Source: Bacteroidota bacterium
Lineage (GTDB): Bacteria; Bacteroidota; Bacteroidia; NS11-12g; UBA955
Direction of reading: 5' to 3'
Assembly (NCBI GenBank): GCA_023957335.1
Contig: JAMLHC010000001.1
Span: 186,001-250,000, forward strand
DNA length: 64,000 bases
Below are positions 58,643 through 61,281 of the stretch, piece by piece. Positions within the stretch are counted from its first letter, which is position 1. Each line of letters starts with the position of its first letter. The position numbers were made by a program, and so were the translations under genes. The notes below the pieces were generated by a model. The model saw only the letters and a program-made list of their open reading frames with translations, was not told the origin of the DNA and did not search any database.

Positions 58643-58674
58643 TTGCTTTGTATGTTTATTTTGATTTAACTTTG
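58643..58674 (+). promoter_or_regulatory. Promoter of the phase-variable gene
   Basis: TTG at 58643-58645, a 21-base spacer and an exact TAACTTTG at 58667-58674 give a transcription start near 58681. That is about 40 bases before ATG 58723 and before the CTAC repeat, so the repeat lies in the transcribed, and probably translated, region. Confidence 0.65.
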
Positions 58675-58722
58675 CACATAGAGACCTAAATTTTATTATT
58701 CAACCCTTAAAATAAAAATGTT

Positions 58723-59693
58723 ATGAACTACAAAAATTACTCTCCCAAAGGTTACAACACCTACCTACCTACCTACCTACCTACCTACACAAGGTAATAG
58801 GTCTAAAAACATCTTTTTCGGCTTTTTCTAAGATTTGCTTGCTGTTTATTGTTATGGTATTTTTTCACTCAAATATCACAGCTGAGACATTTGGAATGCC
58901 ATTCATCAAGACCTGTTACCAAGAATTTCAACAGCAGTATAAGCATCCACAGAAAATTAAATTACTAAAATCGGGGACAAGTGTGGATGTAACCTTTGGA
59001 AGCACCAATATTGGCGACATCTCTGCTTTCCATATCTATGCAATCGTTGACAACATTCCTCTTTTTTATGATTACATAGAGTATCCGGATCCTTTTACTA
59101 CTCCATATACAATAGTAGGAGTTGCAGAGCTAAATACTAACCAAAAGTATAGGATTGTACCTGATTCTAAATATGGTGTTGGCAGTTTCGTTTCTTATGA
59201 TCCTTTTGAAATTGAATTTGTAGATTTTGAATTCACTCTCAAGAACCCCAATCCGCTCAAAGACGATAACTGTATTCAATTAGGAGATAACGGAATGTTG
59301 GAGTTAGAGCACAATCTGACGGGTTTGTGTATGACTCCGTCATTTAAATTTCGTTCTACACCCATTAACTTATTTGGCATCCCTTTCCCTGCAGAATCTT
59401 TTTCTATAAAAGTATCTGAAAATCAATTAGAATTCAACAACATATTTGCGGGATTCACGATTAACCCTGAAGATTGTTATCAGCCTTATCATCAAGTTGA
59501 TGAATATGGAAATATTTATTCAGTTCCAAAATGCGAAAATTTCGACCTCGACATTACCTTTTATCCTTGCGTTTTTGCCGAAGGCGACCCTAATTGTCCT
59601 CCATTTACTATAACACAAAATTTTTTAATCTGCTGCAAATGCAGAGAGCATGCAACCGGTTACGAAGGACCAATTTGCACTAATTGCGACTGA
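58723..59693 (+). CDS. Secreted protein gene with CTAC repeat, currently out of frame
   Basis: The long open frame (to 59693) begins at 58716 with no ATG before 58854; its only start near the signal peptide is a TTG at 58839, which leaves no basic n-region. ATG 58723, placed just after the promoter, is in another frame. Reading from it gives 24 codons through the seven CTAC units and stops at 58795-58797. One extra unit (eight) or two fewer (five) would join ATG 58723 to the long frame, giving a short repeat peptide, then SKICLLFIVMVFFHSNITA as signal peptide and the ETFGMP mature start. The mature protein of about 270 residues is beta-rich and ends in a cysteine cluster, CCKCREHATGYEGPICTNC, that loosely resembles an EGF/laminin module. 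No T9SS sorting domain is seen. It is first in a cluster with two T9SS cargo genes. Function unknown. Confidence 0.65.
58761..58788 (+). repeat. Tetranucleotide repeat (CTAC)x7
   Basis: Seven perfect CTAC units lie 38 bases after ATG 58723. The unit length is not a multiple of three, so slipped-strand changes shift the frame. Repeats of this kind at the 5' end of surface-protein genes are classical contingency loci. Confidence 0.95.
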
Positions 59694-59725: not shown

Positions 59726-60520
59726 ATGAAAAACTTAATTCAAACTTCAATCCTTAGTTTTTTTGCAATGTTCATGTTGAACGCACAAGGTCAATGGATG
59801 GAAGTTAGATACATTGATTTGGGTACTAACTGCATTAGCCCCCTACCAAATTCTTACTTTACTACACCCGCACATTTTGAAGTTAAATTTTCGATTGTCA
59901 ACTATGGACCGGACACTATTATACCGGAGGATTCAGTTAGAATATACATGGATTTCAAAACCGCTAATGGCATTTATAATGGAGATTTTGGTTATGTTTA
60001 CCCGTGCAACATTTCAATCCTACCGGGAGATTCAATTGTGCTGACAAAAACAATATCAATCGACTCAATCCTTTTCTTTGACAATGATTTCCACCTCTCT
60101 TGTGAAGCGTGGCTAAGAAATCGTTCAATAAATATTCATCGCCCTTATATCGGAGAAATTGCAGGCGACCCAAAAACAAATCGTGAAAATAATTTCTGGT
60201 ATCGCAAGATGAAGCACCGCTCCATTATTAGCTCAATTGAGTTCATAAACAATTCATCGCAGGATTTCAATTATTACCCAAATCCTGTCAATGATATGCT
60301 CACAATTCAATATAACAACATCAGTCGAACACCACAACGTATTGAATTAATTGACATCAACGGGCGCTGTATGTATTCTCAACCAATCCTTCGGGCAGAA
60401 CACATAACCGACAGAGCAATACAGATAAACATCCCTGCTTATTTGCAGAATGGAATCTATCTCCTGAAATTATATGTAAACGATGTACCCACTTGGCAGA
60501 AAATCATTATTCAACGATAG
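59726..60520 (+). CDS. T9SS cargo protein with CARDB-like domain
   Basis: The 264-residue protein has a signal peptide (ending LNAQGQ, about residue 22). A single beta-sandwich domain of the CARDB kind follows (FSIVNYGPDTIIPEDSV and LPGDSIVLTKTISI). The T9SS type A sorting domain is about 80 residues, beginning FNYYPNPVNDMLTI and ending GIYLLKLYVND...KIIIQR. It is likely exported and displayed on the surface. It is 32 bases after the phase-variable gene and 6 bases before a paralogous gene, so the three probably form one transcript. Confidence 0.8.
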   Translation: MKNLIQTSILSFFAMFMLNAQGQWMEVRYIDLGTNCISPLPNSYFTTPAHFEVKFSIVNYGPDTIIPEDSVRIYMDFKTANGIYNGDFGYVYPCNISILPGDSIVLTKTISIDSILFFDNDFHLSCEAWLRNRSINIHRPYIGEIAGDPKTNRENNFWYRKMKHRSIISSIEFINNSSQDFNYYPNPVNDMLTIQYNNISRTPQRIELIDINGRCMYSQPILRAEHITDRAIQINIPAYLQNGIYLLKLYVNDVPTWQKIIIQR

Positions 60521-60526
60521 AACTTT

Positions 60527-61281
60527 ATGAGGTCAATTCTAATTTGTCTGCTTCTGCTAATTGGACATTCAACTTTCTCCCAAGAAAGGAAAGTACACTT
60601 AGTTCCAATTGAGATTATTGAGCCAAGATACAATGATACTTTTGATGAAGACAAGAATGGCACAAAAAGAGTGGGTGTGTTTGCATTTACAAATCAAGGA
60701 CCCGACTCTCTGTTGATGGGTGACAATATAGAGTTCTATGCAAAATTTGCAACAAGCAAACACTATGTTATACGTTCTTTAGCTCCCGGAGAAACAGACA
60801 CTATCAAATATTCATATATTTCTTCAGCATTTAGGACTGAAACCCACAATATGGAATTTTGTGTCTATCTTAAATCTGTACGCAACTCCAAAAATATTGA
60901 AATTACAAAAAGAAAACAGCCTATGTTGACCCAGACAAACAGCTATGCACCAAAATTATATATTACTCTATTTATTCTCCCAGACCTGAGAAGTTGAATT
61001 TTATTGACTCCTCCATTATCAACAAACCTTCATCCACCTATTATTATTCGCTTTTCCCTAACCCTGCATCAGGCTATTTTTTTGTTAGATTAACTGATAA
61101 GGAGATAAACCCGCAGCAAGTTGAATTGATTGATGCTGCCGGCAAGATTCAGCTATTAGAATTTGAAATCTTCAGTCCTACATTAATTAGAGTGAATGCA
61201 GCACAAATGGCAAAAGGCTTGTATGTATTCCGTTTGATTTCAAAAGACGCTGTCAGAACAGAGAAAGTACAAATCGAGTAA
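60527..61281 (+). pseudogene. T9SS cargo paralogue with a single-base frameshift
   Basis: The first part (60527-about 60916) encodes a signal peptide and the same CARDB-like domain as the preceding gene (FAFTNQGPDSLLMGDN, SLAPGETDTIKYSYI). The frame then runs off to a stop at 60995-60997. The adjacent frame from 60901 reads TAYVDPDKQLCTKIIYYSIY, which aligns with the preceding paralogue (GDPKTNRENNFWYRKM), and continues into a full T9SS sorting domain (SLFPNPASGYFFVRL ... GLYVFRLISKD) to 61281. One base is missing within 60901-60921, most simply from the A5 or A4 run at 60907-60916. This is real decay or a homopolymer sequence error. Confidence 0.7.

Follow-up and report, generated by a model that had tools for sequence, protein, structure and literature searches.

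On the forward strand of the window (the whole 64-kb stretch of DNA analysed here), an ATG at 58723 is followed by seven CTAC units (58761-58788, read directly from the sequence), which we propose to be a frame switch. By TRF and by sequence the exact array is slightly longer (58759-58788, + strand; 7.5 units, 30 nt), beginning 36 nt past the ATG. It has the top TRF score within the window and is the longest short-unit repeat there; when the window was simulated 60 times under a Markov-1 model, the longest 4-mer run reached 16 nt, which places the array far outside chance. A pattern search found no second occurrence of the CTAC repeat in the source genome, and none in 96 related genomes. The promoter that the original prediction placed here has a plausible counterpart in a putative Bacteroidota-type −7 element, TAACTTTG (TANNTTTG type; 58667-58674, + strand), 48 nt before the ATG.

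The frame opened by this ATG (58723-58797, + strand) translates as MNYKNYSPKGYNTYLPTYLPTYTR and ends after 24 codons at a TAA (58795-58797): as sequenced, with seven units, the gene is OFF, as had been predicted. The ATG misses a long open frame of 298 codons (58797-59693, + strand; TGA stop at 59691-59693) that, from the ORF and the family alignment, encodes a secreted cysteine-rich protein. The signal-peptide coding region (…HKVIGLKTSFSAFSKICLLFIVMVFFHSNITA) occupies 58789-58884 on the + strand, as judged by aligning homolog signal peptides; its end is approximate, the cleavage site having been placed by eye. This arrangement of ATG, seven CTAC units and a long frame out of register with the ATG agrees with the original prediction, as does its arithmetic: 58839 lies 116 nt from 58723, and one unit more or two fewer joins the frames. 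Computed in silico, 5, 8 or 11 units take the ATG frame into the complete signal peptide and the 298-codon open frame, and the remaining tract lengths tried all lead to a stop in 40 codons or less. The joined product (+1 or −2 units) reads MNYKNYSPKGYNTYLP...YLHKVIGLKTSFSAFSKICLLFIVMVFFHSNITAETFG..., a short extension followed by a standard-looking signal peptide, so that the predicted gain of a signal peptide is borne out by the frame outcomes. The locus combines a tandem unit that is not a multiple of 3, close to a start codon; a tract length that toggles in silico between full-length and truncated products; and a gene otherwise intact, with its 298-codon frame and every family cysteine.

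Translation might instead begin downstream of the tract, at TTG 58839, with the repeat merely part of a leader. This codon does open an annotatable ORF (284 codons), and the homolog in the UBA6161 genome has an in-frame ATG after its own tract. However, TTG 58839 is one of the codons for the signal peptide's hydrophobic core (in the stretch LLFIVMVFF), so a product begun there would have no charged n-region; the long frame contains no ATG, GTG or TTG upstream of it, and no further usual start codon is available in frame. The repeat-free homologs, moreover, begin ahead of the charged region. A downstream start is very unlikely on these grounds.

The switched protein matched nothing in Pfam or NCBIfam searches. 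Its family alignment has a set of invariant cysteines, all of them kept in the OFF-state CTAC gene. Full-length homologs occur in a few genera of the order, of which 97 and 108 genomes were searched, and a class-wide search of 395 genomes added a single distant member beyond the order, which has no repeat; remote C-terminal homologs, about 330 aa long, are also without repeats. An AlphaFold model from two sequences (pLDDT 53) is beta-rich, with only an N-terminal beta sandwich. PDE6D-like and Ig-like matches in the PDB were set aside, all PDB E-values being above 1e-3 and the model of low confidence.

A T9SS C-terminal sorting domain (e.g., PF18962) is absent from the switched protein and found in its neighbours. 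The next gene (59726-60520, + strand), 32 nt past the stop codon, encodes a secreted protein with this domain (PF18962). It is conserved in relatives in one to three copies, lying beside the cysteine-rich family in UBA6161 (three copies), at a paralog locus in the source genome, and in the genomes G001, G068 and G062. A second T9SS-tail gene (60527-61281, + strand; ORF and domain search) is split by a frameshift into 60527-60997 and 60994-61281, most likely through an indel in an A-rich stretch around 60900-60920, and represents either a pseudogene or a sequencing error. The cysteine-rich gene probably heads an operon with these T9SS-exported proteins; in the OFF state, its long untranslated stretch could also reduce expression of the downstream T9SS genes.

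Homologs were compared using one genome per species. The UBA6161 homolog (G003; 37-39% identity) has an ATG, 14 nt, ten CT units, and then a signal peptide in another frame, and so is OFF; 8 or 11 units would turn it ON. A paralog in the source genome (G000:C2:125190-125936, 35% identity) also has an ATG and 14 nt, followed by a run of 23 C (C23) and the signal peptide. The C23 run keeps ATG and signal peptide in frame, and a second frameshift directly after the signal peptide halts the frame. In G068, from another genus, seven TCAAACT units occupy the same place, immediately preceding the signal peptide; they share a frame with an ATC that stands in the position expected of the ATG. Its sister G062 has an ATG at the matching position and a short AAACAAC repeat. 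Several members in genus g13 are repeat-free, with an ordinary start.

The likely ortholog of the C23 paralog (L075 10951-11091) in G001, a sister species in the same genus, is a remnant without the 5′ part (L090 3173-3403), behind the same TPR-like gene. Some loci are decaying, since the paralog has its second frameshift and the G001 ortholog has lost its 5′ part. Repeat-free homologs (L005, L006, L007, L009) have upstream of the gene a conserved inverted repeat of CGTAAAACTACG...CGTAGTTTTACG type and, after it, a T run: a putative terminator or regulatory hairpin.

The same layout is found in unrelated secreted proteins. In the source genome, two Gly-rich T9SS-tail paralogs, 81% identical and with nearly identical leaders, each have an AC tract between ATG and signal peptide: 19.5 units in one (G000:C2:78836-78874, L074) and 20.5 in the other (G000:C1:159255-159295, L125/L148). 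Both are OFF, and both tracts appear to be further switch loci. Homologs of this T9SS-tail family in UBA6161 and G066 are ON, with nine AC units and with C8 at the equivalent point, respectively. UBA6161 also has 9.5 AC units before a lipoprotein-type signal peptide, OFF, and an additional CT tract (nine units) following an ATG at a contig end. Runs of (AC)9 or longer occur in 2 of 105 genomes of the order, these being the source genome and UBA6161. Of the switch loci, nine have a mapped ATG, and every one of these has a TANNTTTG box upstream, 19-48 nt before the ATG in eight. Between the AC-tract gene in L074 and a release-factor-like gene is a degenerate minisatellite of CTCAGCAACCGCTATACTACG-like units (L074 18982-19261).

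The unit lengths at these loci are thus 1, 2, 4 and 7 nt, none a multiple of 3, and both ON and OFF alleles are found. A chance or neutral repeat is very unlikely, because homologs and unrelated secreted proteins share the position with different non-triplet repeats, in both states: neutral repeats would not concentrate four such unit lengths at one position, in homologous and non-homologous genes alike. The same evidence bears on the possibility that the CTAC gene is a decaying pseudogene, its array a neutral expansion that broke the frame by chance. It is OFF as sequenced; the C23 paralog is broken, as are the copies in G001 and G062; and the T9SS gene at 60527 is likewise frameshifted. Against this, the open frame has all invariant cysteines, an open frame of 298 codons has a chance of about 1e-9 in random sequence of the same composition, homologs carry other repeat units at the site, and the second family includes ON alleles; decay seems quite improbable as an account of the CTAC locus.

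Assembly error is a further consideration: the gene might normally be ON, with its units miscounted, or ribosomes might change frame on the repeat. There is a single assembly; poly-C and poly-AC counts are error-prone and sensitive to assembly quality, and repeats may be slippery for ribosomes. A tetranucleotide tract of 30 nt is, however, easily spanned by reads, and no slippery motif is common to tracts of four unit lengths at this site. Miscounting or ribosomal frameshifting is given hardly any weight here.

The CTAC tract is therefore, with high probability, a translational phase-variation switch operating by slipped-strand mispairing, and one of several at secreted-protein loci; the original phase-variation reading gains support from the differing non-triplet repeats in homologs and from the unrelated secreted proteins with the same layout. 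Replication slippage would alter the number of CTAC units. One length in three (5, 8, 11 ...) would be ON, letting translation from ATG 58723 read through the signal peptide into the cysteine-rich protein, and the other lengths would be OFF, giving a peptide of about 20-40 residues. The tract would lie in an N-terminal extension that precedes the signal peptide; because this extension is presumably dispensable, translating the tract in ON alleles would cost little. The same design is found again at other secreted-protein loci in the source genome and its relatives. We infer slippage at some rate, variation within the population, and expression, export and a surface role of the protein, with exposure to host or phage. 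Judging from the sequence comparisons, these bacteria very likely switch secreted proteins ON and OFF through repeat slippage, and selection for such expression would be the simplest account of the pattern. We lean slightly toward a broader proposal, a switchable secretome: several Sec- and T9SS-exported proteins would have, after the start codon and before the signal peptide, a repeat cassette that is interchangeable and whose units (1, 2, 4 or 7 nt) were gained independently, producing combinatorial population mixtures without DNA inversion.

Opa proteins of Neisseria are eight-stranded outer-membrane barrels. The switched protein was considered as an Opa family member and rejected: the CTAC repeat is ahead of the signal peptide, Pfam is blank, and the low-confidence, beta-rich model has no significant PDB hits. 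In mechanism, the nearest parallel is nonetheless opa, in which a non-triplet CTCTT pentamer in the leader-peptide region of an exported surface protein shifts frame by slipped-strand mispairing (PMC3960869). Both have a non-triplet repeat in the 5′ region of a gene for an exported protein; unlike opa, the CTAC repeat precedes the signal peptide, the family is unrelated, units differ among homologs (1, 2, 4, 7 nt), and the host belongs to the Bacteroidota. Tetranucleotide loci of Haemophilus influenzae, e.g., the AGTC repeats in mod, are ON/OFF frame switches (PMC3711429), as is proposed for CTAC; there is no sequence relation, and the proteins here are secreted, with T9SS partners. In Helicobacter canadensis, phase-variable genes have homopolymer tracts near start codons and some near C-termini, and variation was shown in reads (PMC2823697). 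The source genome resembles it in its start-proximal tracts and in poly-C near the ends of lipoprotein-like genes, but has mixed unit types rather than homopolymers only, and its switching is deduced from sequence.

Phase variation in the Bacteroidota is known mostly through DNA inversions. Bacteroides, of the same phylum, has a phase-variable surface through promoter inversion (PMC3090145), as against the repeat slippage proposed here. No report of a repeat-driven phase-variable set in Bacteroidota was found in open-access papers. The mechanism is of a known kind, like that of Neisseria opa; what is new is the set of Bacteroidota loci and the convergence across unit types. A slippage-based set of secreted proteins in this phylum, with unrelated units at one position, would point to convergent selection for a hypermutable switch. 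If so, automatic annotation would truncate such genes or place their starts within the signal peptide.

The repeat background was taken from sampled stretches totalling about 0.78 Mb, together with pattern searches; because this sample is less than one third of the source genome, there are at least as many switch loci as counted here. Such tracts are otherwise rare: the only non-triplet ones of at least 12 nt and at least 4 copies in it were CTAC, C23, a TG tract, and shorter poly-C/G. Among the latter, a lipoprotein-like gene has G12 and C13 toward its 3′ end (L068 17797-17808 and 17945-17957), and its paralog a C14, also toward the 3′ end (L081 9525-9538); length changes in these tracts would alter the C-terminus or fuse the gene to the next. 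One member of a tandemly arranged lipoprotein family contains a C12 that leaves its frame intact in the sequenced state (L094 6945-6956), and a frameshift divides a neighbouring member in two.
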